A stretch of 64,000 nucleotides of DNA. Origin: Halichondria panicea. Lineage: Eukaryota; Porifera; Demospongiae; Suberitida; Halichondriidae. Below the pieces are notes generated by a model, which saw only the letters and a list, made by a program, of their open reading frames with translations, searched no databases and was not told the origin of the DNA. The DNA lies in NCBI RefSeq assembly GCF_963675165.1, contig NC_087382.1:1612001-1676000 (forward strand), given 5' to 3'. The translations under genes and the position numbers were made by a program. This document shows, one piece after another, positions 13,179-53,805 of the stretch (positions within the stretch are counted from its first letter, which is position 1; each line of letters starts with the position of its first letter).

Positions 13179-16100
13179 AGTCACGTCCGCAGTCTGTTCC
13201 AGTCCTACCCAAGAACTGGACTGTCGTTACTGACACAGAAACGTGAGTGAATATTGCACAGTTGAGTCACTAGCTTTATGAATGTGAGTCTACTTTAGGA
13301 AGAAGCCAGTCTACCAGAACAAGGCAGCAGGGGAAACTCTGTCCACACCACCTGGATGTAAGTGTGTGCTTGTGCTGTATCCAGCACATGGTTCTGTGTT
13401 TTACCTCCTGTGTAGATCCCCTGCACCAAACCTCCGCACACCCTGATGTCACTTTTTACGACGAGCCTCAAGAGAAGGAGTTCACCTCCAGTGGTGGCCA
13501 TGCTGACTTTGACAATGGAGTTCAAGTGACTGTTCCAGCTAATGCTGTCCCAGCAGGGACCTCTGTGGGCATTAAAGTCCAACCCAGCCTTGCTTCCAAT
13601 GACGTGTTTGTGATCCCTGAGGGCATTCAGTCTGCCAGTCCGTCCTACTTGATCTCTGGTGAAGGTCTAAACGGAGAGGTGACCCTGAGCATGGAGCATC
13701 ATGTACGAGTGTCCACCCAACAAGAAGCTGATGACCTCCTCTTTCTCCAAGCTGACTCGTCTCCTAAGAGATCTGGTTCTCATAGTGTCTATGAGTACCA
13801 GGAAATACCAGAGGGGAGGTCAGAGTTCACTCCTGGAGGGAACACTGGGAGACTGACGCTCGGCACACGGCTGAAGAACTTCTTCAAAATTGGACGGAAA
13901 AATAGAGGTTAATACTTAGAAAAATGAATGACTTCCAATTGACCGATTATAATTATTATATGTACAGGCAACACAGACAGTAACCTCTACACTGTCAGAG
14001 TCTACCGGTCTCCTCCACAAACAACTGAGGACAGGATAGCCATCATTGTAGCCAGTCTCTGTGGGAGCTTATACGCTAAGGTAGGATTGCTCAATTGAAG
14101 TGTGCTCATTTTATGTACCTAAATCTACAGTTTCTAAAGAAACTTGATAATGTGATCATCCCACGAGACTATCCCAATGTGTCGAGAGAAGTGGCTGACA
14201 GGACGACTCAAGGACCACTGACGTTTGTTGATATGTGTGCTACTCTCAACATTCACCCAGTGCTGGGATGGTCTGTGGAACCAGACAAGGAATTGGTAAA
14301 ATGTGAAGTTGGAAACACGTTTAAAATCACATTCTCTTCATTTTCAGATCTTACGTAGTGGAGTGGATCAGCCTGAGGTGGAGAAGTTCAGACCTGAGGA
14401 TCTCCACGACTACCCTCCCAGGATAATCTGCAGGCTCTTCCCTGAGAAGAATGCTCCCAAGAGAACCACCTGTACCATCTCCTTGTCTGGACTACTGCCA
14501 CAGGTCAAAGTTAACCTACCATTGAAAATACTCACCCCCAAAGTTGCTGTGGATACTACTAAACTACAGGTATTCACGTTTGTACAGTGTAGCCTCTTGA
14601 AATGGTGTAGTGGGTACCTTTGGCAAACTAAATTTTACTCCTAGATAGATTTGTCCTCTTTGTAGATTCAACTTGCACAGTCATGTATAAGTTAATTAAT
14701 GCACACACAGTGTTTGTTTACAATGTACATTGTAGTTAAGTCTCATTCCAACTTGTTTAGGAGACCACTGATGAGTTGAGAAGGTCTGCCCGGGCAGTGA
14801 GTGACACACAACTTGGCTCTACTGTGAAGAGTGTAGTGTCTCTGATGGAGAGAATGACTGCTGCTCTGAGGTACCACTCAATTGTCTAGTGGAAGTCTGA
14901 TAATTGGTTTTTCTTCTTCTAAAGGGCATCTTCTCTGAGTGATCTGACAGGCCACACTGACTCCATACGGACAGAGATAAAAGCTGTCCTTGTAGTGACC
15001 AGGAGGGTTGTCGAGGAGTGCACAGTACAGAGCATCAGTGAGAACATGGGAGCCAGTCTCTCTAAGATGGAGACTTTATCTCACCAGCTTTGTCATGTGG
15101 CCAAGGTTAAAATCAGATATTGTCTAGGTGAGAACGTGTGTTTATGATATCAAGTGTTAGCTCTCATTCTCAATGGTACAGACCAGTCAGAGGAGACAGC
15201 TGCTCTTGTTGACCTGGTGGAGAATGGAGCTAATCTGTTGAGAGCTGTGGACTGTCTACTCAGGGACATCCACACACTCAGTGGAGTCAGTGGTGAGTGT
15301 ACATTGTCAGCTGTGTATTGAGTATTAAAGGTACCTACCTATTATGTGCACATTGTTAATCCTCCATTTGTTCAATACCACATTCCCTATTCTTGTGTAT
15401 ACCGTATAAGCTCTATTTAAGACGGCAGATTAAAATAGTTACGTTGGTAAAGGTGGCTCTATTAGGAGGTTGGTTTCGAGGCTGGATGGCGCGTCTTTAG
15501 AGGGGTGCCTTCTAATTAGAGGTAAAACAGCTTTGCAAAATGGACTGTGAATGTAGAACCCCTGCAGCAGGTTTTTTGGTCTTCCATGCAACAAACCTGT
15601 GCATAGGTTGCACACGTTAAAGAGGTACTGTGGTTCGTTTTGGCTTGAGGGCTGCCAGATGTGGAAGAAAGAATTCTGTGATCTGTTTGCTCATTTTACC
15701 TCAACGCGCACGCGTTGAAAATAATTACTCACACATGTGGAGCTTTATTTGGAGTTTCAAAAATTACTTTGGAGGCTTCATGGTGCATCTTTAGAGGGGC
15801 GCCTTAAAAAGAGCTTATATACGGTATATACTGTAAGCCATGTACTGAGTCTGTTAGTCTGTTAGTCTCATTTCTTGTGCATATGCCATATTCCTTCCGC
15901 TATTGAGTCTATTTGTTCACATTACGTGTACTTAGTGCTACATGTGTGGGCGTATCATTTCCTCTTTCACACAGATATAGTATTGTAATCCACGTACACC
16001 ATTTCCTTTGCTGACCCTCACCCTATCCACACTACAGGCCTGGCAGAGAGGATAGACATTGAACACCCTCTACTCAACAACGAGATTGAGACAACAGAGT

Positions 16101-16360
16101 TCATACATTTGGCGGCTTATTTCGACAACGTGATAATGTACTCTCTAGCGTTGGGTCTCACTCCTGCTCAGCAAGCTGATGTGAGGCAGATTAAAGTTTT
16201 AGAAGACACACAAACGGCCATGATGCAATGCTTGTCCCTATGGCAGAGGAGTAACCCAGCTGCTGCAACATATAGAGCTCTAATTAAATTACTCCAAAAG
16301 ATAAGAAAAAATGAAATTGCTAATAAAGTGTTTAAACATTGCCTAGAGAAGGAACAATGA
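6884..16360 (+). CDS. Ankyrin-ZU5-death domain protein, copy A (811 residues, 16 exons)
   Basis: Exons: 6884-6973, 7478-7576, 8139-8237, 9329-9427, 12428-12526, 12788-12877, 13181-13242, 13299-13357, 13416-13907, 13968-14080, 14131-14295, 14348-14569, 14761-14870, 14925-15127, 15182-15292 and 16038-16360. All borders are GT/AG and all phases agree (2436 nt). Residues 1-30 (MDIHNAATFG...) form an ankyrin-like cap. Exons 2-5 each encode one 33-residue ankyrin repeat (TPLHRAASEGHTDCVKELL and similar), and exon 6 a 30-residue repeat. Exon 9 carries a ZU5 domain (EFTSSGGHADFDNGVQVTVP). The middle (exons 10-15) is unassigned and could include a UPA-like region. The last exon is a death domain (MMQCLSLWQRSNPAAATYRA). 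ZU5 plus death domain is the plan of UNC5, PIDD and ankyrins, so an intracellular signalling adaptor is likely. No transmembrane segment is seen. Confidence 0.85.
7611..7735. mobile_element. Partial copy of the TACGGTGGCC miniature transposon
   Basis: This is the left part of the element found complete at 10312-10721 (starts TACGGTGGCCCTGAGGTAC), ending in a second copy of the target context (ACTGATGTGTCTATAG). The right terminal repeat is missing, so it is an internal deletion or a truncated copy. Confidence 0.65.
8262..8760. repeat. Intron 3 repeat fragments
   Basis: At 8262-8280 lies the unoccupied version of the CTATAG insertion site. At 8305-8420 there is a fragment beginning ACCGTACTCACCCGAAAATACGCCCCC, related to the end of the TA-flanked element at 46470. 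At about 8500-8740 there is a diverged copy of the sequence also found at 50800-51010 and, inverted, at 63880-64000. A copy of the 8340-8420 piece also lies at 7800-7880. No coding exon is visible. Confidence 0.55.
9435..10284. mobile_element. TA-flanked miniature DNA transposon in intron 4
   Basis: The 850-bp element has inverted ends (CAGTAGCCCTCATATAAAAG and its complement) and TA on both sides (9433-9434, 10285-10286). The other ankyrin introns read GTGAGTATCTGATAC without interruption, giving an exact empty site. A TA duplication points to the Tc1/mariner superfamily. It carries no transposase. It inserted six bases after the exon 4 donor and leaves GTGAGT intact. Confidence 0.85.
10312..10721. 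mobile_element. 410-bp miniature transposon with 6-bp target duplication
   Basis: Inverted ends of about 50 bp begin TACGGTGGCCCTGAGGTAC and are flanked by CTATAG on both sides. The empty site GTGTCTATAGGCAGCATG is present at 8262. No coding sequence is visible. Block B has the same insertion at the matching place, so it predates the duplication. Confidence 0.85.
10923..12174. mobile_element. TAGCCTCG-ended (Mutator-like) non-autonomous transposon, copy A
   Basis: Terminal inverted repeats of about 60 bp (TAGCCTCGTTCTCAGGCC... and complement) bound 1252 bp. The flanks AGTATATAC and AGTGTATAC match at 8 of 9 bases, consistent with a 9-bp target duplication as in the other members at 56713, 60621 and 61403. 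There is no transposase frame. It sits in intron 4 of the ankyrin gene and is shared with block B (39853-41077). Confidence 0.8.
11005..11615. mobile_element. Nested miniature transposon (AAGGGCGTATAC ends)
   Basis: About 34-bp inverted ends (AAGGGCGTATACAGAGAAGA... and complement) lie inside the larger TAGCCTCG element, flanked by CATATGGGC and GATATGGGC (8 of 9 bases match). In block B the left inverted repeat has been lost. A left end of the same family also lies at about 25849. Confidence 0.75.
13106..13176. repeat. (AC)n microsatellite
   Basis: A run of about 35 AC dinucleotides ends directly at the TTAG acceptor of exon 7 of the ankyrin-ZU5-death gene, so it replaces the usual polypyrimidine tract. 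The matching run in block B has a different length. Confidence 0.95.
15410..15826. mobile_element. Miniature transposon with TACCGTATAAGCTC ends
   Basis: Inverted ends of about 28 bp (TACCGTATAAGCTCTATTTAA and complement) bound 417 bp in the last intron of the ankyrin gene. TA lies at both borders. The element is absent from block B, which has a different insertion in the same intron. Confidence 0.7.
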
Positions 16361-16990
16361 ACTGTACACTTTATCATAATTATAATTATTGTTATTTTAG
16401 CCTTATTTGTTTTGTGCTTGTTATTTATGAATCGGTTTGTTTGTATTATAATTTGTGAATGTCTTGATCATAATTTGTATAATTATAATTATGTGTAGTA
16501 CCAGTAACGCATTGATCTTAATGATATCCTCATGCCATGCATGGATTATTGGCTGTGTAATAACAGCTAGTAGTATGTTTAATGTTCACCTCATGTAATT
16601 CTGTCTACATTCCTTGTATGTACCATAATCATTCTAACCAGCCTCAGTTATAGGGCGCCCTCTTTTAATTTGTTTCATGCATTAATTGTTTCTAGAAAAA
16701 TAATTATTTTTTACTGGTTCTATAATTAGAACGATTACGGTATGCATGTATAAGTATACATTACCCTGCAGGTCAAAATTGTTAATTTAAATTGTTAATT
16801 CATAATGCCAAGACACAATAATGTCATCAGCTAGCTACTAAACACATACAGCTCTCAAAATGACAACTGAACCATCTACTAGTAGCTACACGATAACAAT
16901 AATAAACTAGATAGCTGGCTAGATAATCACTCGCTAAAATGCTGATACTAGAGCTAATAGCAGACAACTCAATTGAAATGAGGTTAAGTT
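16361..16990. other. AT-rich intergenic spacer
   Basis: This is the 3' flank of the ankyrin-ZU5-death gene. It contains AT palindromes (ATAATTATAATTAT) and, at about 16674-16740, a TTGTTTCTAGAAAAATAATTATTTTTTACTGGTTC motif that recurs at 31636, 55757 and, inverted, near 28740 and 53135. From about 16795 it matches 50245 onward. No coding sequence is visible. Confidence 0.6.
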
Positions 16991-16997
16991 GAAATCG

Positions 16998-17243
16998 TTA
17001 TCCAAAATTCATAGTCCAAAATCGTTGCAGCAGTAGGTCAGAGGGGGCTTTACTCAGTCTTGAACTATCAACGTTGCTCAGGTTCCAGATACTTTGGTTC
17101 TCAAAGAGGTCATAGGTGGTGGTTGAGAGTGTGGTCTCCTTGGAGGGTGAGGTTGGGTCGGTGGTGCCACTGCTGATAGGTAGGGGGCTCATATCGGAGG
17201 TGATGTCATTACTGTAGAATGGAGCAGTGTCTGTTGACCACAT
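16998..17243 (-). CDS. Ser/Thr-rich hypothetical exon, copy A
   Basis: The open frame begins MWSTDTAPFYSNDITSDMSP and is rich in Ser, Thr and Pro (81 residues). A second copy at 50494-50763 keeps most of the peptide but has a different end (SLTLLSWAQQKSEPSQSKTE). A possible acceptor (CCCTCTGTAG) lies at about 17277, which would make it a terminal exon. It is next downstream of selenoprotein K on the same strand; joining it after the GR codons of that gene uses a different frame, so I do not assign it there. Function unknown. Confidence 0.35.
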   Translation of the reverse strand: MWSTDTAPFYSNDITSDMSPLPISSGTTDPTSPSKETTLSTTTYDLFENQSIWNLSNVDSSRLSKAPSDLLLQRFWTMNFG

Positions 17244-17510
17244 GTTGGGGCTGTCTCAGTTAGGACTGGTGCTCTACAGAGGGGAGAGAGAGATCATGAT
17301 CAGATAACACACACAGTGTGCAGTGTAGGTCTGCTGAAACATACAGTACATTGCATGCAGTACAGTACAAGTTTGTGTGTGGTCAATGTACACTATAAAA
17401 AAGGATATCATAACACGTGTATCAACTTCCTATCACAAAACACACATCACACACACACACACACAATACCTTCCTCATCCACCGCCCACACACACACACC
17501 CACACAATAC

Positions 17511-17952
17511 CTTCCTCATCCACCGCCCATGGGGGGAGGTCCAGCACCACCACCAGCACCCTTACCAACACGACCAATACGTCTCCCTTGATCAGCACTG
17601 CACACACAAAGGTAGGCATAAAATTGGCAACACAAAACAAAACAGAACAGTACAAGAGACACTATAAACGTACACTCCAGATCGCCTATAGTCTGTGCTG
17701 CGTGATGGTCCAGTAGCACTAGCTCCAGGGCTTATTAGAGTCTTGAAGCTGTGAGAGCAGGGAGGGTTGAAACACACTGGCATGATCAGGGTGTGTGTAA
17801 CTTACAAGAAGTTAATGACAGCCCAGAACAAGTCAACGATACCGTCCACACTCAGCCATGACCTGTTCTAAAGGACTTTACCTGCACACAGTAGAGTATG
17901 GAGTGTGTCAGCTAATATCACACTCACACTTACCTCCTGATAAATTCACCAT
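17511..17952 (-). CDS. SELENOK: Selenoprotein K, four exons, with UGA Sec codon and an in-frame TAG
   Basis: Exons 17952-17934, 17881-17806, 17748-17674 and 17597-17511 have GT/AG borders and consistent phases and give about 86 residues: MVNLSGGKVL at the start, a hydrophobic segment DLFWAVINFLFKTLI, then DYRRSG, RRIGRVGKG and GPPPMGGG followed by TGA (17518-17516) and GR. The PPPM..GG-U-GR end is the hallmark of selenoprotein K, a small ER membrane protein linked to ER-associated degradation, and the length fits the family (about 90-95). Odd: codon 11 is TAG (17870-17868), where family members have a sense codon, so this is a null allele, a recent pseudogene or a base error. A second copy of the end of exon 4, with its own TGA, lies at about 17465-17490. 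I found no convincing SECIS element. A minisatellite starts one base upstream of the ATG. Confidence 0.75.
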
Positions 17953-18830
17953 AGCTTCCTTGAATCTTGTTGTATGGAACCACTTGCACCACTAGTCTAC
18001 ACTCAGCTCTTCTATTGTATAGAACCACTTGCACTCAGACACTCTGACTTGCACTAGTCTACACTCAGCTCTTCTATTGTATAGAACCACTTGCACTCAG
18101 ACACTCTGACTTGCACCACTAGTCTACACTCAGCTCTTCTATTGTATGGAACCACTTGCACTCAGACACTCTGACTTGCACTAGTCTACACTCAGCTCTT
18201 CTATTGTATGGAACCACTTGCACTCAGACACTCTGACTTGCACCACTAGTCTACACTCAGCTCTTCTATTGTATGGAACCACTTGCACTCAGACACTCTG
18301 ACTTGCACCACTAGTCTACACTCAGCTCTTCTATTGTATGGAACCACTTGCACTACTAGTCTACACTCAGCTCTTCTATTGTATAGAACCACTTGCACTC
18401 AGACACTCTGACTTGCACTAGTCTACACTCAGCTCTTCTATTGTATAGAACCACTTGCACTCAGACACTCTGACTTGCACTAGTCTACACTCAGCTCTTC
18501 TATTGTATGGAACCACTTGCACTCAGACACTCTGACTTGCACTAGTCTACACTCAGCTCTTCTATTGTATAGAACCACTTGCACTCAGACACTCTGACTT
18601 GCACCACTAGTCTACACTCAGCTCTTCTATTGTATGGAACCACTTGCACTCAGACACTCTGACTTGCACTAGTCTACACTCAGCTCTTCTATTGTATGGA
18701 ACCACTTGCACTCAGACACTCTGACTTGCACTAGTCTACACTCAGCTCTTCTATTGTATGGAACCACTTGCACTCAGACACTCTGACTTGCACTTGTCTA
18801 GTCTACACTCAGCTCTTTGTGGTGGTTTAG
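17953..18830. repeat. About 62-bp minisatellite, 13-14 units
   Basis: Tandem units read CTTGCACTCAGACACTCTGACTTGCAC(CAC)TAGTCTACACTCAGCTCTTCTATTGTAT(G/A)GAACCA. Units differ by presence of CAC, by A/G at one position, and one unit lacks the central part. There are no unique spacers. The array abuts the 5' end of the selenoprotein K gene and may contain its promoter. Confidence 0.95.
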
Positions 18831-27212: not shown

Positions 27213-28328
27213 TTAAAACGGGCGAATAATGATGTGTAAAAGTGTGCACAGACTACTTGGTTCTAAAAGTACATTATAACCTATCACTTTGAAATTCAAG
27301 TCTGATGCTCCATCCTTCAAATGAACACTGAGAATGCAATGAATCCCCCCATACACTTTGCTGAGTAGAAGTCCTTTCACTTTGAATTCTCTAAGGACAT
27401 CCCTTCGTTTACCGATTTTTCTCAGGATTTTGCTGACTAAGAGGATATACAAACCTGAAAATACTTCCCCTAATTTCTCGGGGAAAGCTGAATCACTTAT
27501 ACCCTGCATTGGATTAGGTTGACGGCTGTTTTCCACTAATCCCTCTTCTCCATTGCTTTCCTCTAACTCTAACTGTGTTGCATCACCTGAAGAGACCATT
27601 CTGTTCTTAGTGATCACAACATCTAGGGAGCCACAGAAAAGGAATTGACGTTTCGTAGCAATGTCTCCAATTTTGAGACACACCTTAAGCAAATCAGTGG
27701 TCCATGAGAGCCCCATAGTAGCTGTAAACGTAACTGTCCTATCGGGAAATAGCTTTTGAATGCAAGGTACAAGTCTCTTTGTCCAATCATTTTCTTGCCA
27801 ATTAAAAGCAAAGGAAGATATAGGAGTGACGTACGGTGTGCCTTCAGAGGATTCTTCACCTCGAATAATTTTCTGTAGTTTGGTAACTTCAGACTGGATG
27901 CCTGCATTACTTATGTGTGCCTTGTATTGACTCAAAACAGCTTTATTACCAACAAAGAAAGGCAACAAGCTTGCATGAGCTGAACACGTACAATTGACTA
28001 AATCATCTTCGCATCTATCAACACGCACACAACCACTCAACTGTGATAACGTAGTACTTGAACATGTTGCATGCTCGCTGTGTTCATACACATATATATT
28101 TTTGTCGTCTAGTTTTACAAATGACCCATTCAACTTGAATCCTTTCTTTCCACCTACCAAATTTGAATTCAACTTCCGTATGTCTTGCTGTATAACCTTT
28201 CCTATTTCTTCACTAATATCCTGTTTGAAGATAGAAAATGGAATTCGACTCAAAACTGTATCAGATATTCTTGTTTTTAAATGACAGAATGAAAGACCAA
28301 AGTAGAAAAACTCTGCTTCCAAGCAAGA
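27213..28328 (-). CDS. Hypothetical protein terminal exon, block D copy 1 (intact)
   Basis: An open frame of about 370 residues begins after an acceptor (TTTTTTTGCAG at about 28329), so it is the last exon of a longer gene; no upstream exon was found. Features: SDTVLSRIPFSIF, a cysteine cluster (CVRVDRCEDDLVNCTCSAH), NDWTKRLVPCIQKLFPDRT, FCGSLDVVITKN, an acidic linker (LELEESNGEEG) and SGLYILLVSKILRKIGKRRD near the end. GSLDVVI followed by a helix faintly resembles a PD-(D/E)XK nuclease core, but I see no clear E-x-K. The family is not recognised. A copy at 51625-52736 is frameshifted and a fragment lies at 62556-62700. It lies convergently downstream of nothing obvious and on the same strand as the membrane gene at 29662. 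Confidence 0.6.
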   Translation of the reverse strand, partial: SCLEAEFFYFGLSFCHLKTRISDTVLSRIPFSIFKQDISEEIGKVIQQDIRKLNSNLVGGKKGFKLNGSFVKLDDKNIYVYEHSEHATCSSTTLSQLSGCVRVDRCEDDLVNCTCSAHASLLPFFVGNKAVLSQYKAHISNAGIQSEVTKLQKIIRGEESSEGTPYVTPISSFAFNWQENDWTKRLVPCIQKLFPDRTVTFTATMGLSWTTDLLKVCLKIGDIATKRQFLFCGSLDVVITKNRMVSSGDATQLELEESNGEEGLVENSRQPNPMQGISDSAFPEKLGEVFSGLYILLVSKILRKIGKRRDVLREFKVKGLLLSKVYGGIHCILSVHLKDGASDLNFKVIGYNVLLEPSSLCTLLHIIIRPF

Positions 28329-28349
28329 CTGCAAAAAAACAAAAAACAA

Positions 28350-42105: not shown

Positions 42106-45100
42106 AGTCACGTTCGCAGTCTGTTCCAGTCCTACCCAAGAACTGGACTGTCGTTACTGACACAGAAACGTGAGTGAATATTGCACAGTTGAGTCACTAG
42201 CTTTATGAATGTGAGTCAACTTTAGGAAGAAGCCAGTCTACCAGAACAAGGCAGCAGGGGAAACTCTGTCCACACCACCTGGATGTAAGTGTGTGCTTGT
42301 GCTGTATCCAGTACATGGTTCTGTGTTTTACCTCCTGTGTAGATCCCCTGCACCAAACCTCCGCACACCCTGATGTCACTTTTTACGACGAGCCTCAAGA
42401 GAAGGAGTTCACCTCCAGTGGTGGCCATGCCGACTTTGATAATGGTGTTCAAGTGACTGTTCCAGCTAATGCTGTCCCAGCAGGGACCTCTGTGGGCATT
42501 AAAGTCCAACCCAGCCTTGCCTCCAAAGAGGTATTTGTGATGCCTGAGGGCATTCAGTCTGCCAGTCCGTCCTACTTGATCTCTGGTGAAGGTCTAAACG
42601 GAGAGGTGACCCTGAGCATGGAGCATCATGTACGAGTGTCCACCCAACAAGAAGCTGATGACCTCCTCTTTCTCCAAGCTGACTCGTCTCCCAAGAGATC
42701 TGGTTCTCATAGTGTCTATGAGTACCAGGAAATACCAGAGGGGAGGTCAAAGTTCACTCCTGGAGGGAACACTGGGAGACTGACGCTGGGCACACGGCTG
42801 AAGAACTTCTTCAAAATTGGACGGAAAAATAGAGGTTAATACTTAGAAAAATAAATGACTTCCAATTGACCGATTATAATTATTATATGTACAGGCAACA
42901 CAGACAGTAACCTCTACACTGTCAGAGTCTACCGGTCTCCTCCACAAACAACTGAGGACAGGATAGCCATCATTGTAGCCAGTCTCTGTGGGAGCTTATA
43001 CGCTAAGGTAAGATTGCTCAATTGAAGTGTGCTCATTTTATGTATCTACAGTTTCTGGAGACGCTTGATACAGTGTTGATCCCACGAGACTATCCTGAAG
43101 TGTCTTCAAAGTCAATTGACAGGACAAGTCAAGGACCACTGACGTTTGTTGATATGTGTGCCACTCTCAACATTCCCCCAGTGCAGGGATGGTCTGTGGA
43201 ACCAGACAAAGAATTGGTAAAATGTGAAGTTGGACATAGTATTACTCTTAAAATCACATTCTCTTCATTTTCAGATCTTGCGTAGTGGAGTGGATCAGCC
43301 TGAGGTAGAGAAGTTCAGACCTGAGGATCTCCACGACTACCCTCCCAGGATAATCTGCAGGTTCTTCCCTGAGGAGAATGCTCCCAAGAGAACCGCCTGT
43401 ACCATATCCTTGTCTGGACTACTGCCACTGGTCGAATTTTACGTATCATTGACAGCACCCACCCCCAAAGTTGCTGTGGATACTACTAAACTACAGGTAT
43501 TCACATTTGTACAGTGTAGCCTCTTGAAATGGTGTAGTGGGTACCTTTGGCAAACTAAATTTTACTCCTAGATAGATTTGTCCTCTTTGTAGATTCTACT
43601 TGCACAGTTGTGTATAAGTTAATTAATGCACACACAGTGTTTGTTTACAATGTACATTGTAGTTAAGTCTCATTCCAATTTGTTTAGGAGGCCACTGATG
43701 AGTTGAGAAGGTCTGCCCTGGCTGTGAGTGACACACAACTTGGCTCTACTGTGAAGAGTGTAGTGTCTCTGATGGAGAGAATGACTGCTGCTCTGAGGTA
43801 CCACTCAATTGTCTAGTGGAAGTCTGATTATCCTTTTTTTCTTCTGAAGGTCATCTTCTCTGAGTGAGCTGACAGGCCACACTGACTCCATACGGACAGA
43901 GATAGCGTCTGTCCTTGTAGTGACCAGGAGAGTTGTCCAGGAGTGCACAGTACAGAGCATCAGTGAGAACATGAGAGCCAGTCTCTCTAAGATGGAGACT
44001 TTATCTCACCAGCTTTGTCAAGTGACGAAGGTCAAACTCAGATACTGTCTAGGTGAGAACGTGTGTTTATGATATCAAGTGTTAGCTCTCATTCTCAATG
44101 GTACAGACCAGTCAGAGGAGACAGCTGCTCTTGTTGACCTGGTGGATAATGGAGCTAATCTGTTGAGAGTTGTAGACTGTCTACTCAGGGACATCCGCAC
44201 ACTCAGTGGAGTCAGTGGTGAGTTTACATTGTCAGAGTCTGTGTATCGGTATCTACCTACCGTATAGCGGGTATATTTCTAAGGTATAAATTTTCGCGGA
44301 AATGCCTTTAGAAATTAATGTTTTCGCGGATTTGATTTTTGTGAAATAGCAGCCTATTTGCAGCATGCATGCATACGATATTAAATTCTCGGTACATGCT
44401 TAATCCATGACAACCACGAACATGTATACCCTCTATACGGTATTATGTTTTGATTTTAGATCAATGATACTCTGCTGCTCAACAGCAACCACCCTCCCTC
44501 CGTTTCTTTCAGCTTCCATAACATGGCAGTTACAGTAGGATACCATATTTGAATTGTCCAAGAGGGGCAAACCATATCCAACAGGAGGGTGGCAAAAGCC
44601 TCCCTAATTTCCCCTTGAGATTAATATCCACGTATAGTTTTTTGTCGAAATTTGCTGTTTTTTTTCTCCTCCCAAAACTTATAGCCAATGTATGTAGAGC
44701 TACAAAATGCATCTTTTAGTAGTTAAGTTATGACCTCCTGAAAGAAGCTAGCGTAATAGCTAGGTGCCATATTCCTTTCCACTTCCACTGTATTGTACAT
44801 ACTACATGTACTGTACTTAGTGCTCCAGTGTGTGGGCGTATCATGCTCTAACCATTTCCTCTTTCACACAGATGTATTGTCATTGTATTGAACTGCATGC
44901 AATCCACGTACACCATTTCCTTTGCTGACCCTCACCCTATCCACACTACAGGCCTGGCAGAGAGGATAGACATTGAACACCCTCTACTCAACAACAAGAT
45001 TGACAGAAAAGAGTTCGCATATTTGGCCGCTTACTTCGACGACGTGATATTGTACTCTCAGGCATTGGAACTCACTCCTCCTGAGCAAGCTGATGTGAGG

Positions 45101-45280
45101 CGGTTTCTAGTTTTGTATGACACACGAACGGCCATGATGGAGTGTTTGTCCCTGTGGCAAAAAAGAAAGCCTGCTACTACAACATACATCGCTCTTATTA
45201 AAGTACTCCAAAAGACAAGAAGAGATGACATCGCAAGTAAAGTGTATAAACATTGCCTAGAGAATAGTAAACTTACATAG
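38513..45280 (+). CDS. Ankyrin-ZU5-death domain protein, copy B (745 residues, 14 exons)
   Basis: Exons: 38513-38602, 39107-39205, 41334-41432, 41694-41777, 42108-42169, 42226-42284, 42343-42834, 42895-43007, 43052-43216, 43275-43496, 43688-43797, 43850-44052, 44107-44217 and 44952-45280. Phases agree throughout (2238 nt). The layout is as copy A but with one SSGAVVDL-type ankyrin exon instead of three. Divergence is uneven: the ZU5 exon is almost identical, while the ankyrin cap (MDIHKAANAGDLSALKDAIK), ankyrin exons and death domain (TAMMECLSLWQKRKPATTTY) differ at many residues. That pattern suggests changing partner surfaces around a constant core. The death domain ends HCLENSKLT, like the remnant tails. 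Confidence 0.85.
39240..39651. mobile_element. CTATAG-flanked miniature transposon, block B copy
   Basis: Same element and same site as 10312-10721, with CTATAG at both borders and TACGGTGGCC / GGGCCACCATA ends. Confidence 0.85.
39853..41077. mobile_element. TAGCCTCG-ended transposon, block B copy
   Basis: Same insertion as 10923-12174. The left inverted repeat of the nested AAGGGCG element has been deleted here (about 39940). Confidence 0.8.
42044..42103. repeat. (AC)n microsatellite, block B
   Basis: Matches 13106-13176 in position, directly before the acceptor of the SRSQSVPVLP exon. Confidence 0.95.
44235..44880. other. Last intron of copy B: distinct insertion
   Basis: This intron shares little with copy A except the last part. 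It holds TACCGTATAGCGGGTATATT, repeated TTTTCGCGG motifs, a fragment of the GTTACGGCC-type repeat (about 44457-44530) and a Py-rich AAACCATATCC segment. No exon is seen. Confidence 0.5.
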
Positions 45281-45529
45281 CACATGTGTAGCGTATTATT
45301 TGTTTTGTGATCGTTCGTGGTGCTGGTTAGTAGAGTTTGAATGCACGTAATATTTTGTGGTTTTTTGGCGTTGTATTTTTTGGATACTATAATGTGACTA
45401 TGAATGGTGAGTCACTGGTGGGAGTGTACTGTCAGGATTGTAAATTATTATTATGCCTTGATTATTTCTGTAACATTGTGTAACTAGCAATAATAGAATT
45501 GGCGATCTTTACCAAATCACCAAACCAGC

Positions 45530-45660
45530 GAAGAGGAGAAGGGACCCTGCATGCTGGTGCAACTTACAGAGCTCTTGTGAAACTACTCCTAAGAATGAGG
45601 AAATATGACATTGCTAGTAAAGTATTGAAACATTGCCAAGAGAATGGTAAACTTACATAG
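45530..45660 (+). pseudogene. Death-domain tail, block C (open frame kept)
   Basis: Reads ATYRALVKLLLRMRKYDIAS, then KVLKHCQENGKLT and TAG at 45658-45660, without the deletion present in blocks A and B. There is no acceptor or upstream half, so it is still a fragment, but it is the best evidence that these tails come from a death-domain last exon. Confidence 0.75.
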
Positions 45661-45905
45661 TACATGTGTAGCGTAACATAATCTGTTTTGTGATGGATCC
45701 ATGCTTGTGAGTAGAATTTGAATGCTCCTAATTTATACTAGGGATGCATTTGTGAGTCAGAAGTATGTGATCCTCTACCTGCCTACATTGTACGAGAGCT
45801 TAGCTTACAAGCCCCCTCATAACAATGACCTCAAGGACTAATAATGCATTTATCATACACATGAATTGTGTCACATGACTATGTGCTACTGTTTCAATGT
45901 TACAG

Positions 45906-47692
45906 TGTTGTACAGTGCGTGAGGTGTGTGCCAAGTTCACCTCCATGCCATTGTCACTGAGGTGACGAGTACTGTCTCAATACTAGCCCTTTAAAATGTA
46001 CACATTTACAATCTGGTCACTTTAATTACAAGTGGTTGTTAACGTGAGCTAGTTTTGTAGTAGCTAATAGCAGATTTACTTCTGCTGGAAGGTCACATTT
46101 CATTTCTACCATTAAAAATTTTGCTCACTGTACATGCAGGCGTATAAGTCGGTTGTCATTTGAATATTCCTTCTCTTAATTAGAGTGTGTGAGGAGGAGG
46201 TCAAGGCGAGGATGGGATTAGTGGAGTGTGTCAACCACAACCTAGTGGAGCCCTACCATCATCTACGAGAAACACGGTGACTATGTACTCTGAACCTTCA
46301 TACCTTGGTTACTACACAGCTAACAAGTGTTTAAATCTAGTGCCTGGATAGTCTGTATCAGCAGTTGTATTATATAAAGTGAAACCTCCGAAAATGTGTG
46401 CAGCATTTATTTGTGACGTTTGTTCTCTGTATTGAGCCTGAGGTGGTCCTTTATTCAGTGGTACCTATACCGTACCCTCGCGAAAATACGCCCACCCTTT
46501 TCTTCAAGAAGTCTAGGCTTATTAGGGGACTGGGCGTTTAATCGCGAACGGCGAGTTTTCATTCAAATATACCCCCACCCGCGGCCTCAAATCGAGGTTT
46601 ATACTTTGCTCTATTGTATTTTCATTTTAATACATAGTATGAACATTTCATTGACAACAACAATGTTATAAACTAATGCATGAGTATGATAAAGCAAGAC
46701 AAGAGAATGAACAAGAAGAAGTGAACTCTGACTCTATTCGTTGCTTGTCACTTGTGTCGATGTCAGATGTACGTAGCAGAAACTTCCCAAAGGATGATAG
46801 GTCATACTCCTACAGAGCAGCTATCAGGTACTTTGTTTCAGAAAACCAAGGCAAGGTAACCTGCAAAATTGGCCTGTGTGATAACTTTCTTGGACTTTGT
46901 GTTTTCTTTTCTCTGCATATAGGACTACTTGTTCCCTGCATATACATCTTCAGGGGCAAACAGATCCATACAGAGAAAGTTATATGTCTGATCTTGGTCC
47001 AGCAAGGAGTATAGTCTTACTAGCTACTACCTAAAACTTCCTTTCTTCACTAAAATTAATGGTAAACATGTGGCATTTAGCTACTGCGCATGCTCAAACT
47101 CTTCATTCTAGGTGGGCTTATAATCCAGTGAAAATACCCTCGTGCAAGAACTTCGAAGCAAAAGAGGGGATGGGCGTTTATTCAAGATGGGCTTATTTTC
47201 GAGAGGGTACGGTAATGTAGGAAAGTGATTTTGTAGACTGAAGCAGTGTCCTTTGTAGCTACACAGAGAGATGTTTAATTGAGTGTCTCTTATTCAGAGG
47301 GTCCTTTATCAGAGGTTCCACTGGTATTCATATTGATGTTGGTACTGTGTTTCCTATGTAGGTGAGTATGTTGCACAGATGAAGTTCACTCTGCTGCTAA
47401 TGGCCAATGGACCACAAAGATGAACATCTGAAACTCTCCTGCCTGTACAATTCATGTTGTGTAGTGCAGGCTGTGTGTATCACAGCGTTCTGTAGTGCAT
47501 GAAGTTTGAGGTGTACGTACGTATGACATCATTGCCATTGTTTGTCTGGTGTGTTCATGCACTGTATTGGTTTGATTGTGTGTACACTACAACATTCAGT
47601 GATTGTCATTCCCCACAGACTCACCAGTGGCTCCTTTGACCCTGCATGAGCTAGTGTCTTCACAGCTGAAACTAGAAGACCCTCAACTGAAT
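45906..47692 (+). pseudogene. PA2G4/EBP1 3' gene fragment, copy C
   Basis: Exon-like segments 45906-45961, 46184-46276, 47362-47419 and 47619-47692, with both shared frame breaks. The intron between segments 2 and 3 is enlarged by a TA-flanked element (46470-47212). The third segment has lost its GT donor (AAGATG), as in copy A. Confidence 0.75.
46470..47212. mobile_element. 743-bp TA-flanked transposon
   Basis: Inverted ends CCGTACCCTCGCGAAAAT... and complement lie between TA duplications (46468-46469, 47213-47214). Blocks A and B have the empty site ACCTATAATGTA. Inside is an open frame (46676-47014, MHEYDKARQENEQEEVNSDS...) that I do not recognise; it lacks a DDE-type transposase signature. 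Inserted after the duplication. Confidence 0.85.
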
Positions 47693-47829
47693 GTGAGTAC
47701 ATACAAATTAGCTCTAATAATTAGGACAGTCAGTTATTTCATGGGAAATTCCTTTTTAAACCTGTTCCAAGGTCTGTTTCAAAGCTTTCAGAAAATCATA
47801 AAAATTGGGAAATTAGATCAATGATACTA

Positions 47830-48390
47830 GTTACAGCCATTGAACCCCCCCCCCCCCTCCGTTTAATTGCTCCTTGGAGGGTGAGCCGGACCATATTTGA
47901 TGACTGGTTAGGCAGCCCCTCTAATTAATTAGAGGAATGCAACCCGCTAGTTATTAATAATAATCAGGCGTTTCTATTGCTCCCCTAATTAAGTACTTGG
48001 GGGTAAAGACGTGGCCTAGCCACCAGTCATAGCTTCAGCTCAGTCATGCCCTAACCACATGCAGAGAAGCTTTTAGAAAATCATTGACAACGATGCTTAT
48101 TTATGGCAAGAACACTTATCTACTCTTGGTTACGGCAATTAAACTGCACAGCCCTCCCCCATCCGTTAATTAATGGTTCGGGGACTCTTTTAGCTGCCAT
48201 GCATAACTTGAATTCCCTGTATTTAATGTTTAGAAAGTATGAAGGTCTCTTTAAAAAATCATAAAATTATAAAATTGGATCAGTTACGGCCATTGACAGT
48301 TGTTCAACCCTCCCTCTGTTTAACAATGGTTTGGGACTCTTTTAGCTCCCATATAACTTAAATTCTTAGGTATTTAATTTTTAGTGTATA
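47830..48390. repeat. Degenerate tandem repeat, block C copy
   Basis: Same GTTACGGCC-type array as in blocks A and B. Confidence 0.6.
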
Positions 48391-48601
48391 GAAAATAGTT
48401 GCTCTTCATATCTGTTGTTCCATATTCCGTTCCATTCCGCATTCCTCGTTTTACAACATGCCTTTCCACTTCCTCCTATTGTGTACTATCAGCCATATAC
48501 AGTGTATTGTACATGTACTGAGTCTATTTGTTCACATTACATGTACTTAGGTCTCCAGTGTGTGGGCGTATCATGCTCTAACCATTTCCTCTCTCCTGCA
48601 G

Positions 48602-48924
48602 GTAACGCTGGCTACAGTGTGCTGGTGAGCTGCAGTGAGAAGATAGTCCAGTCACTCTCTGAGGACCCAAAGGCCTTGGCCCTCCACCTCCTGTCAGCTG
48701 GACTCATCACTGTGTCCATTTTTGAGAAAACCAACGAGTTGAATGAGAGCAAGAAAGAGAAGGCCACCAGACTGTACACTGCCCTACTGGGTGTGGTCAA
48801 GCACCACCCCCACAAGTACCACGAGTTTGTCTCCACTCTCAGACTCAACCCACTACACACTGACTTGGTCACACTAGTTATCAACAACATGATTATACAT
48901 GAGATTGTGTTGTGCATGCTTTAA
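48602..48924 (+). CDS. CARD-like terminal exon, copy C, with replaced C-terminus
   Basis: Starts after TCTCCTGCAG and runs open for 107 residues. It matches copies A and B up to HTDLVT, then switches to LVINNMIIHEIVLCML and a stop at 48922-48924, because block C breaks here. ELNESKKEKATRLY replaces EYVNETKREKATRLY. The domain itself is complete. No ankyrin gene follows. Confidence 0.5.
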
Positions 48925-49248: not shown

Positions 49249-50110
49249 TCAATGCAACTCGACTTTGTAGATCTGGAACACCAGCGTGTCTTCATGCAGG
49301 TATGGTTCCAGTTCTGTGTGAGGAATGAATTTAATGTAACCCCACTCTCCTTTCCCCACTTCCCCATCTCTCACTCTCGTGCATACACTCTCAACCACGT
49401 TATCGTCATACATCACTGAACCATTTTTGTGGTTCTGTCTGTGCTGATCTAGCAGTCGCAATGAAATAATCCCACGAAATGGCCATTTTAGATGATCGTC
49501 AAACTCTCCTCTCATGAAGTGTAGAAACACAGACACGTGAGTTCCTTTTCCAAAACCGTTGCCGTTAGCAATCACCCTCAAGCATATCTTGTAGCCCTGT
49601 TGATTGGTGTATACTGGGTTGGATGTCCATCGATCGCTGTCTCTCTTGTGATCACTGAATCGTGTCATATTGAATGTTGGGGGATCCACATTGGACACAG
49701 TTTTGTACTGAATGGCCGCACAATTACTTGATGTGATACTCTCTTCGAGGTGCATCATAGTGTCCTTGATTTCGTCAAAAAAGTTCGCTGCCATTTTTCT
49801 TGCTCTTTAAACAAGGTGGATTTAAAACTAGAATTCGTAAGCCATAAGGCCAGAAATGATCCAATGACCACGATCAATATCGACCCGAAAGCTATATTCC
49901 ATCGCTGCTGATCATTCTTCAATCGTTGCTGATCATTCTTCAACTCAGTCTTCAATTGGTGCAGATCATTCTTCGACTCTGCTCTCTGGTTACTAATCCT
50001 TTGAATAATCTCCCTTTTCAGTGTCCTACTTGCTTCACAGTTCAGTGGGTGAATTCCAGTCTCTGGCTGTGCTTTCTGGAAACAATCTTCCTCATGATCA
50101 ACGTCCCATG
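49249..50110 (-). CDS. Coiled-coil, membrane and MATH (TRAF-like) domain protein
   Basis: The minus-strand frame from about 50110 reads DHEEDCFQKAQPETG, then a charged helix (LKTELKNDQQRLKNDQQRWN) and one hydrophobic segment (FGSILIVVIGSFLALWL). After a shift at an A5 run (about 49793) it continues from 49794 as MAANFFDEIKDTMMHL and a MATH domain: MTRFSDHKRDSDRW, SNPVYTNQQGYKICLRV, GKGTHVSVFLHFMRGEFDDH, WPFRGIISLRLLDQ, ending VFQIYKVELH. MATH domains of TRAF proteins bind receptor tails. One extra A would fuse the parts into a single frame, so this is a base error, a recent frameshift, or a separate 181-residue MATH protein. An acceptor-like AATAG precedes the frame at about 50110. Cysteine-rich text further up (VCGCDEECKQTQANH) could be an upstream TRAF-type zinc-finger exon. 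Confidence 0.65.
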
Positions 50111-50244: not shown

Positions 50245-50790
50245 AAAATTAATGCCAAGACACAATAATGTCATCAGCTAGCTACTAAATACATACAGCT
50301 CTCAAAATGACAACTGAACGATCTACTAGTAGCTACACGATAACAATAATAAACTAGATAGCTGGCTAGATAATCACTCGCTAAAATGCTGATACTAGAG
50401 CTAATAGCAGACAACTCAATTGAAATGAGGTTAAGTTCAAATCGTTATCCAAAATGCATAGTCCAAAATCGTTGCAGTAGGTCAGAGGGGGCTTTACTCA
50501 GTCTTGCTTTGTGAGGGTTCAGATTTCTGTTGGGCCCAGGAAAGAAGTGTTAAACTATCAGCGTTACTCAGGCTCCAGATACTTTGGTTCTCAAAGAGGT
50601 CATAGGTGGTGGTTGAGAGTGTGGTGTCCTCGGAGGGTGAGGTTGGGTCGGTGGTGCCACTGCTGATAGGTAGGGGGCTCATATCGGAGGTGATGTCATT
50701 ACTGTAGAATGGAGCATCTGTTGACCACATGTTGGTGCTCTGAGAGGGATCATGATAATACACACAGTGTAGAGTGTAGGTCTGTGAAGC
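50245..50790. repeat. Copy of 16795-17310
   Basis: A near-identical segment (AATGCCAAGACACAATAATG...) that includes the Ser/Thr-rich exon. The selenoprotein K exons that follow it in the first unit are absent here. Confidence 0.85.
50494..50763 (-). CDS. Ser/Thr-rich hypothetical exon, copy B
   Basis: Open frame containing MWSTDAPFYSNDITSDMSPL with a changed C-terminus relative to 16998-17243. The acceptor-like CCTCTCAG at about 50743 is in frame with STNMWST. Unknown function; conserved peptide text in two copies is the only support. Confidence 0.3.
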   Translation of the reverse strand: MYYHDPSQSTNMWSTDAPFYSNDITSDMSPLPISSGTTDPTSPSEDTTLSTTTYDLFENQSIWSLSNADSLTLLSWAQQKSEPSQSKTE

Positions 50791-50884
50791 ATACAGTACA
50801 TTGCATGCAGTATGTATATCAGTGCATAGGGTGCTTACTAGATTCTTGCCAGCCAGTACAGTTCAAGCTACACACAACACCGCT

Positions 50885-51560
50885 CAACTATTCTCTACCC
50901 CATTATCTAGCTAAATCTGGTCCAACTAGACAGCAGACACAGCTAGTTAATTCAGTAAAACCAGGGGTAGCCCTACTTCTACGGTTGTTCAGTACCCACG
51001 GTAACAATTCCTCTGGGCTGGGCTAACTAGTTGAGCCACGCCTCCCAATTCTCAAGGCTAGGTACATGTCTCTGTCTAGCTGCTTCTTCAGCTTCTTGCT
51101 CAGTTTTGTGGCTTAGAGAAAGGCCAGCTACTCAGGGGGAAGAGTCCAGATGAAAGTCTGGCAGCCAGGTGACGTCCAAACGGTCACTTATTCGTTCCAC
51201 CAACTTTTTAATCTAGTCTAGTCCTGCTTGCACTGCTATAGTTGGGCGGAGTCCAACCAACGCTGCGCTCTGGTTGGACTCCGCCCAACTAGCACTGCTA
51301 CTACTACTGCTACTCTTCCTACTACTACTGCTACTCTTCCTAGCTAGTCAAAGGTTTCTTTTTTTTTTTTTTTTTTGTAACTGCATATGCACAAAGAGAC
51401 ATCAAAGCTTACATCAAAGGACACAGATTTTTAGCCTACTTGACTGATAAGGCCGTTACCTAGACTACATTTTGTTTGTCAGGGAGGAGCTCACATACAA
51501 CTTCATCTATAACGATTCGTTACCGTTGTTGTAATTTCTACAACAGATTGCTAAGGAAAG
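50885..51560. repeat. Inverted duplicate of 63397-64000
   Basis: About 640 bp runs from TTCTCTACCCCATTATCTAG to GTTGTAATTTCTACAACAG, including a T-run (51358-51376), and recurs in reverse complement at the right end of the window, where the T-run is an A-run. Part of the family also lies at 8500-8740. Confidence 0.9.
51239..51291. mobile_element. 53-bp hairpin insertion with 9-bp target duplication
   Basis: Perfect arms TAGTTGGGCGGAGTCCAACC and complement enclose an 11-bp loop. GCACTGCTA flanks it on both sides (51230-51238, 51292-51300). The inverted copy near 63655 has the empty site (GTAGCAGTGCAAGCAGG). The TAG...CTA ends and 9-bp duplication match the larger TAGCCTCG family. Confidence 0.85.
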
Positions 51561-51624
51561 AGTTACAATTACAACAAACTCTACATGAATATTCTCATCA
51601 ATAAGTTGTGTATGCAGACATAAA

Positions 51625-52736
51625 TTAAAATGGGCGAATAATGTTGTGTAAAAGTGTGCACAGACTACTTGGTTCTAAAAGTACATTATAACCTATCACT
51701 TTGAAATTCAAGTCTGATGCTCCATCCTTCAAATGAACACTGAGAATGCAATGAATCCCCCCATACACTTTGCTGAGAAGAAGTCCTTTCACTTTGAATT
51801 CTCTAAGGACATCCCTTCGTTTACCGATTTTTCTCAGGATTTTGCTGACCAAGAGGATATACAAACCTGAAAATACTTCCCCTAATTTCTCGGGGAAAGC
51901 TGAATCACTTATACCCTGCATTGGATTAGGTTGACGACTGTTTTCCACTAACCCCTCTTCTCCACTGCTTTCCTCTAACTGTGTTGCATCACCTAAAGAG
52001 ACCATTCTGTTCTTAGTGATCACAACATCTGGGGAGCCACAGAAAAGGAATTGACGTTTCGTAGCAATGTCTCCAATTTTGAGACACACCTTAAGCAAAT
52101 CAGTGGTCCATGAGAGCCCCATAGTAGCTGTAAACGTAACTGTCCTATCGGGAAATAGCTTTTGAATGCAAGGTACAAGTCTCTTTGTCCAATCATTTTC
52201 TTGCCAATTAAAAGCAAAGGAAGATATAGGAGTGACGTACGGTGTGCCTTCAGAGGATTCTTCACCTCGAATAATTTTCTCTAGTTTGGTAACTTCAGAC
52301 TGGATGCCTGTATTACTTATGTGTGCCTTGTATTGACTCAAAACAGCTTTATTACCAACAAAGAAAGGCAACAAGCTTGCATGAGCTGAACACGTACAAT
52401 TGACTAAATCATCTCTTCGCATCTATCAACATGCACACAATCACTCAACTGTGATAACGTAGTACTTGAACATGTTGCATGCTCGCTGTGTTCATACACA
52501 TATATATTTTTGTCGTCTAGTTTTACAAATGACCCATTCAACTTGAATCCTTTCTTTCCACCTACCAAATTTGAATTCAACTTCCGTATGTCTTGCTGTA
52601 TGACCTTTCCTATTTCTTCACTAATATCCTGTCTGAAGATAGAAAATGGAATTTGACTCAAAACCGTGTCAGATATTCTTGTTTTTAAATGACAGAATGT
52701 AAGACCAAAGTAGAAAAACTCTACTTCCAAGCAAGA
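51625..52736 (-). pseudogene. Hypothetical protein terminal exon, block D copy 2 (frameshifted)
   Basis: Near-identical to 27213-28328, but two extra bases (CATCTCTTCGC against CATCTTCGC, about 52413) shift the frame after VHVDRCEE. The downstream part is still open from MRRDDLVNC for 265 residues. Copy 1 has LELEESNGEEG where this copy has LEESSGEEG. Confidence 0.7.
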
Positions 52737-53805
52737 CTGCAAAAAAAACAAAAAACAATCACACACTTCATAATAGTTATTACATAATATAGACTCCACC
52801 AACAGTACTGCCTATACCATCTTTCTTCTAATTACATCGCCACTAAAAATTATGATTTAATTTCCAGTGGCGCACAAATAGAACAAGAGAAAAAAACAGT
52901 TTGGCGCTCAGCAATAGAACATACAGTACTACTAGCTGTTTCTACGAGGCTATGAGATCAGTGGCCAGCCTTGATTTAAGGCTACCTTAAATCAAGGTAG
53001 CCTTTAAACCTAAGCACCAGCAAAAAATAATTCCAGAATTTACTTGGCGCTCAATTGGAGTATGTGAACTTGGCGCTGTAATTGGAAGGAGCTAGGACAG
53101 TACTGCCTATAATTTATACCGTAATTGTTCTAATTATAGAACCAGTAAAAAAATTCTAGAAACAATGGGTCTATTTACTTGGCGCTCAATTGGAGTAAAA
53201 TTAATTGTGAACTTGGCAATTCTAATTTAATAGAGTGGCGCTGTAATTACTGCTTTAATTAGAATTATCTGCTATAACGTGCAAAGATTTAAAGGTGTGG
53301 CTTCCAGTAAGCAGTCATTCTGCGAACATTGTGCAACGAAACGTTTTTACATATACATGTAGAGGCCATTTTTGGATAAATTATTATATTGTAGTTGAAT
53401 CATTCATCTACACACGGGTATCAACACCATTTCTCTTAGAAATGCTCCAATCAAAAGATATTTACATTTAAGTATACAACTACTCACACATTTGTGGTAA
53501 TCTACTCTCTACAGACTAAATGTATTTATTTTACAATGCAAGTATACTACACATATTAAAGGTTGCGAATTGGCAAGTTGTGTCAATTCACTCGATCGTC
53601 TTTATATGCATAGCATATCATATAAAAGGAAGGTTAACTTCGTAAGGTGTTTGAATTGGAGTTTGTTCTTCCAAAGTAATCATAGATTAATTTCTCCATT
53701 TCCTCTTTTTCAGTCTCTTTCTCCAGGCAGGCTCGATTTTATCTTTTGCATTGATGAGAATCTGAACAAGTTCGTGTTTGTCGTGCTTGAAAAACAGTTT
53801 ATAGG
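52737..53805. other. Intergenic spacer, copy of 28350-29660
   Basis: Same hairpins and GGCGCTCAATTGG repeats as in copy 1, without the 255-bp CACAGGAAA insertion. No gene visible. Confidence 0.6.

Follow-up and report, generated by a model that had tools for sequence, protein, structure and literature searches.

Selenoprotein K (SELENOK, SelK) is, when intact, a small endoplasmic reticulum membrane protein with a selenocysteine (Sec)-bearing tail, and the known animal proteins terminate at or near the sequence UGR. SelK was present in five of six surveyed invertebrates, a sponge included, and regular annotation mishandles selenoprotein genes owing to the double meaning of TGA (PMC3473315). 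The sponge Amphimedon queenslandica possesses one SelK gene, and the GUGA_AA type accounts for 12 of the 21 SECIS elements detected in that species, that of SelK among them (PMC3473315). Among mammalian selenoproteins, SelK is the richest in pseudogenes, with 27 recorded in 11 organisms, and every mammalian UGA-to-SECIS distance exceeds the minimum of 51-111 bases (PMC3316567). In Drosophila persimilis, a one-base insertion in SelK removes the in-frame TGA and lengthens the frame by nine codons, with the stop lost and the SECIS degenerate (PMC2500217). By these cases, SelK copies die often.

A selenoprotein K gene is recognizable on the minus strand of a 64,000-nucleotide stretch of the Halichondria panicea genome (hereafter the window), where four exons separated by canonical introns read as 86 residues. 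Exon 1 (17934-17952) reads ATG GTG AAT TTA TCA GGA G and is followed by the donor GTAAGT; exon 2 (17806-17881) holds the bulk of the membrane segment as well as a TAG; exon 3 occupies 17674-17748; and exon 4 (17511-17597) encodes GRRIGR ... GPPPMGGG-U-G and terminates at a possible donor, AG/GTATTG. The introns, of 52, 57, and 76 bases, begin with GTAAGT, GTAAGT, and GTACGT and all end in CAG, such that the six splice ends are intact, and the exons carry no frameshift. The chain translates as MVNLSGGKVL*NRSWLSVDGIVDLFWAVINFFFKTLISPGASATGPSRSTDYRRSGVADQGRRIGRVGKGAGGGAGPPPMGGG*G. A TGA occupies the Sec position at residue 84 (17518-17516) and is followed by codons for GR (GGG-TGA-GGA-AG(G)), with the final R requiring one further base, supplied either by reading on from AG or by splicing. 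The highest 19-residue hydropathy of the read-through peptide, 1.52, falls at residues 20-38, a stretch of membrane length in the N-terminal half and past the TAG.

With the TAG entered as X and the TGA as U, the peptide matched the Pfam family SelK_SelG (PF10961) over profile positions 4-86 of 86, i.e., full-length, with 54.7 bits (cut-off 23.3) and an E value of 1.6e-14 that is somewhat flattering, the exon chain having been picked by eye. Parts of the chain were also scanned separately. Exons 1-2 alone gave 22.6 bits (E 1.7e-4), slightly below the cut-off, exons 2-3 minus the portion up to the TAG gave 29.9 bits, and exon 4 by itself gave no Pfam match with either U or C at the Sec position. 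Judged from its sequence, the locus is more than a chance match to SelK. An earlier sequence-only reading had named selenoprotein K, four in-phase exons, and a Sec UGA, and all three are upheld by the family score, the GT-AG introns with the full-length 86-residue reading, and the TGA at residue 84. The peptide resembles metazoan SELENOK/SelK/SelG, including Aq.SelK of A. queenslandica, in its full-length profile match, short N-terminus, membrane segment, basic Gly/Pro-rich tail, and a Sec-position TGA with GR behind it. Outside this family comparison, the Protein Data Bank returned a single match, to a ribosomal protein with an E value of 1, which was taken as chance, and a search for relatives in viral contigs yielded 37 stretches that fit the peptide pattern, none of which was confirmed.

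The frame from start to Sec is not open, since a TAG lies in frame at codon 11 (17870-17868, minus strand). The same reading had placed this codon correctly, ahead of the membrane segment. If the locus were transcribed and translated, a 10-residue peptide would result. Relative to Aq.SelK, which possesses a GUGA_AA SECIS (PMC3473315), the Halichondria locus differs in this TAG and in the lack of a recognizable SECIS; unlike in D. persimilis SelK, which is likewise disabled around the Sec codon (PMC2500217), translation here is halted ahead of the membrane segment. When nothing but the stretch up to the TAG was removed and an M was prefixed, the Pfam score fell to 47.1 bits, and it was 47.0 when this stretch and the final three residues were both left out. 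Because the residues ahead of the TAG add ~8 bits to the SelK_SelG score, the frame appears to have formerly run through codon 11, and the upstream segment looks like genuine SelK. Two of the seven domain ORFs in the window terminate in TAG; the absence of TAG inside domain ORFs is uninformative, as those ORFs were cut at stops.

Taken alone, the TAG would be compatible with gene death, an allelic variant, or a sequence error. A working SELENOK in which the TAG stems from a single-base error of sequencing or assembly, or from a rare null allele, and in which the SECIS went unrecognized or lies beyond a 3′ intron, is favored by the otherwise intact exons, phases, and splice sites and by the family membership of the residues ahead of the TAG (54.7 bits with them, 47.1 without). 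We nonetheless rate it as rather unlikely, given the 3′ evidence described below. The TAG might instead be bypassed by splicing, with a weak donor at the start codon (ATG/GTGAAT) joined to an acceptor made by the TAG itself (CCTTTAG/AAC). The resulting MNRSWLSVDG... would lose neither the membrane segment nor the tail with Sec; the phases fit on reading the sequence, and the product scores 47.1 bits for SelK_SelG. However, this donor would compete with a consensus GTAAGT donor, the splicing is predicted from sequence only, and decoding of Sec would still need a SECIS, none of which was found downstream; we consider such a bypass very improbable.

The 3′ end of the frame is also unusual. When the unspliced frame is read past Sec, it continues as GRYCVGVCVWAVDEEGIVCVCV before reaching another TGA, so that, in contrast to metazoan SelK, no stop directly follows GR. 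The Sec codon is spanned by a 41-bp unit present in two copies with 97% matches (17448-17529, minus strand), and the stretch containing GGGCGGTGGATGAGGAAGGTATTGTGTG accordingly occurs twice with a period of 41, a length that shifts the second copy into another frame. This out-of-frame duplication of the Sec codon counts against a working SELENOK, for which a 3′ splice at AG/GTATTG would place the SECIS in a later exon; the single A. queenslandica SelK with its GUGA_AA element (PMC3473315) speaks for such a gene.

A search for a SECIS element 3′ of 17511, suggested by the sequence-only reading, was negative: none was recognizable in the ~3 kb downstream by Rfam or by our own scans, which returned nothing beyond chance. 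Rfam at gathering scores gave no match in the whole window, and at E values up to 10 it gave no SECIS in 15000-18000 and only two unrelated chance matches there, with models whose sensitivity is not established for sponges. Our scan accepted both AUGA and GUGA forms, because the SECIS elements of A. queenslandica, that of SelK included, are often GUGA_AA; it was home-made, and its positive control (-51.5) was a made-up consensus rather than a real sponge SECIS. Within 14500-17560, it produced eight hits, among which the best values were -12.1 for the total and -6.6 kcal/mol for helix II. Hits in the whole window numbered 128 (plus strand) and 117 (minus strand), from which about six are expected per 3 kb. 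Four of the best 12 SECIS-like hits in the whole window fall in a repeat at 24.0-24.2 kb and two in ZU5 ORFs. Looser scans spanned only 16200-17512 and 16700-17512; in the former, the best total (-12.1) was reached by 16 of 20 shuffles and the best helix II (-5.1) by 19 of 20. The lack of any SECIS-like element above chance in 14500-17560 weighs further against a working SELENOK.

The sole return of a fold-based scan of 17512-16700 was a hairpin at 17383-17450 (minus strand) with GUGA and GA strands and without the unpaired AA. It starts 68 bases beyond the SelK UGA, and the TGA that closes the unspliced frame (17449-17447) shares bases with its GUGA. Its total of -25.4 was equalled or bettered by 14 of 60 random pieces, drawn from the entire window with the SelK 3′ region included. 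The 150 bases around it (17362-17511) fold with a z score of -2.52, a value attained by three of 200 shuffles, and that of 16800-17270 is unremarkable (z 0.47, equalled or bettered by 66 of 100 shuffles). As a SECIS, the hairpin was provisionally rejected, being non-canonical, devoid of the unpaired AA, and within the range of the random pieces. A real and tolerated TAG, serving as the acceptor of the first intron to give a shortened SelK whose Sec is decoded through this non-canonical GUGA hairpin, seems to us barely credible.

Two units arranged head to tail, at 4056-35501 and 35565-60023 (~31 vs 24 kb), span most of the window, and a partial third copy lies at 45471-48874. Self-comparison gave 19 matches of at least 300 bases, a tally that omits those starting in the minisatellite: 10 between the units, four with the partial third copy, and five from other repeats. 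Between the units, substitutions amount to 1.1-3.4% in eight of the 10 blocks and to 6.7% and 13.5% in the other two. The head-to-tail arrangement and the low divergence of the eight blocks are what would be expected if the assembler had placed the two haplotypes of a single locus end to end, one with the TAG-bearing SelK and the other without it; the two more divergent blocks and the partial third copy are better fitted by tandem duplication, and we entertain the haplotype explanation as a possibility with appreciable doubt. It concerns the setting of the gene and is compatible with a dead copy.

The SelK 3′ flank belongs to this duplicated setting. The segment 16803-17362 (minus strand) is common to 50250-50812, with 83% identity counting gaps and 2.7% substitutions, and contains a short ORF that is not SelK. 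The match ends at 17362, ~150 bases beyond the Sec codon, and the identity of the flank from this point on with a duplicated block is a third argument against a working SELENOK. From the flank to the next shared block (51572 in the second unit), the distance is ~760 bases in the second unit and ~9.8 kb in the first. No SelK exon was found in this interval of the second unit, and most of the interval (50891-51565) matches 64000-63383 in inverted orientation; compared directly, the intervals of the two units gave short matches only. A second SELENOK locus, which the earlier reading had proposed to look for, was not found within the 64,000-nucleotide window, the best of the listed tblastn matches outside the locus having an E value of 1.4. 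On the other side of the gene, a minisatellite of 62-65-bp units (17970-18817, minus strand) comes within 18 bases of the SelK ATG, and the near upstream region is therefore largely repeat.

The TAG, the missing SECIS, the duplication of the Sec codon, and the junction right behind it are, taken together, most economically explained by a dead or dying copy. We put the probability at roughly 0.6 that the locus is a SELENOK-derived sequence representing a recently inactivated, 3′-damaged copy or allele. SELENOK would have been separated from, or deprived of, its own 3′ untranslated region and SECIS, after which constraint would have been lost and the stop gained; any working copy in this animal would be located elsewhere in the genome. 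Two observations run counter to a dead copy. The coding exons are clean apart from the TAG, with no frameshift and a strong family score, which speaks for a recent inactivation or an erroneous TAG; more damage would be expected in an old pseudogene, and one wrong base could explain the TAG. The other is the hairpin at 17450-17383, which lies right behind the gene at a suitable place for a SECIS, carries GUGA and GA next to a helix, and is embedded in 150 bases that fold better than all but three of 200 shuffles. The sequence-only reading had offered a dead gene, a polymorphism, or a base error. The missing SECIS, the 41-bp duplication, and the duplicated flank without SelK tilt this choice toward the dead gene, with base error and polymorphism still in contention.

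The mammalian SelK pseudogenes are likewise disabled SelK copies (PMC3316567); the copy here is not processed, since its introns are kept. If this is the only SelK of the animal, the locus would record the loss of SelK in the lineage; alongside a second copy, it would be an ordinary pseudogene. Because SelK pseudogenes are common in mammals (PMC3316567), a dead SelK copy is in itself of low interest. With a TAG as well as a Sec TGA, such a copy makes a useful annotation test case, if one of modest importance. No description of this locus was found in the titles and opening lines of abstracts on SelK, sponge selenoproteins, SelK pseudogenes, SelS, and SECIS, a literature sample with few subscription papers.

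Several other features of the window were noted. Domains encoded in it comprise ZU5, Death, MATH, PHD, and laminin/attractin EGF. Together with the spliced SelK, they indicate an animal source, and the small introns and repeated immune-like ORFs would suit a sponge. A short Ser/Thr-rich ORF occurs in both units, at 16998-17255 and 50497-50862, and the copy behind SelK has 46 fewer bases, a changed frame, and 21 extra bases in front. This pair was considered as a last SelK exon and rejected: one ORF gave no Pfam match and the other only one with E 4.9, the 46-base gap between the copies is not divisible by three, and the SECIS scans of this region were negative. ZU5 and Death-domain ORFs are present on the plus strand of both units, at 13274-13909 and 15989-16357 in the first and at 42201-42836 and 44852-45277 in the second. 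The first Death-domain ORF scores 25.0 bits against a Pfam cut-off of 22.6, and the second, at 21.6 bits, falls just below it. The Death-domain blocks are those that differ by 13.5% substitutions, as opposed to 1.1-3.4% in most of the between-unit blocks (eight of 10), possibly reflecting fast evolution of an immune-type gene. A 378-aa ORF without a Pfam match above cut-off is open in the first unit (27216-28349), and its counterpart in the second (51628-52811) is split over the overlapping frames 52407-52811 and 51628-52422. A MATH (TRAF-type) domain ORF at 49252-49806 on the minus strand scores 103.6 bits.
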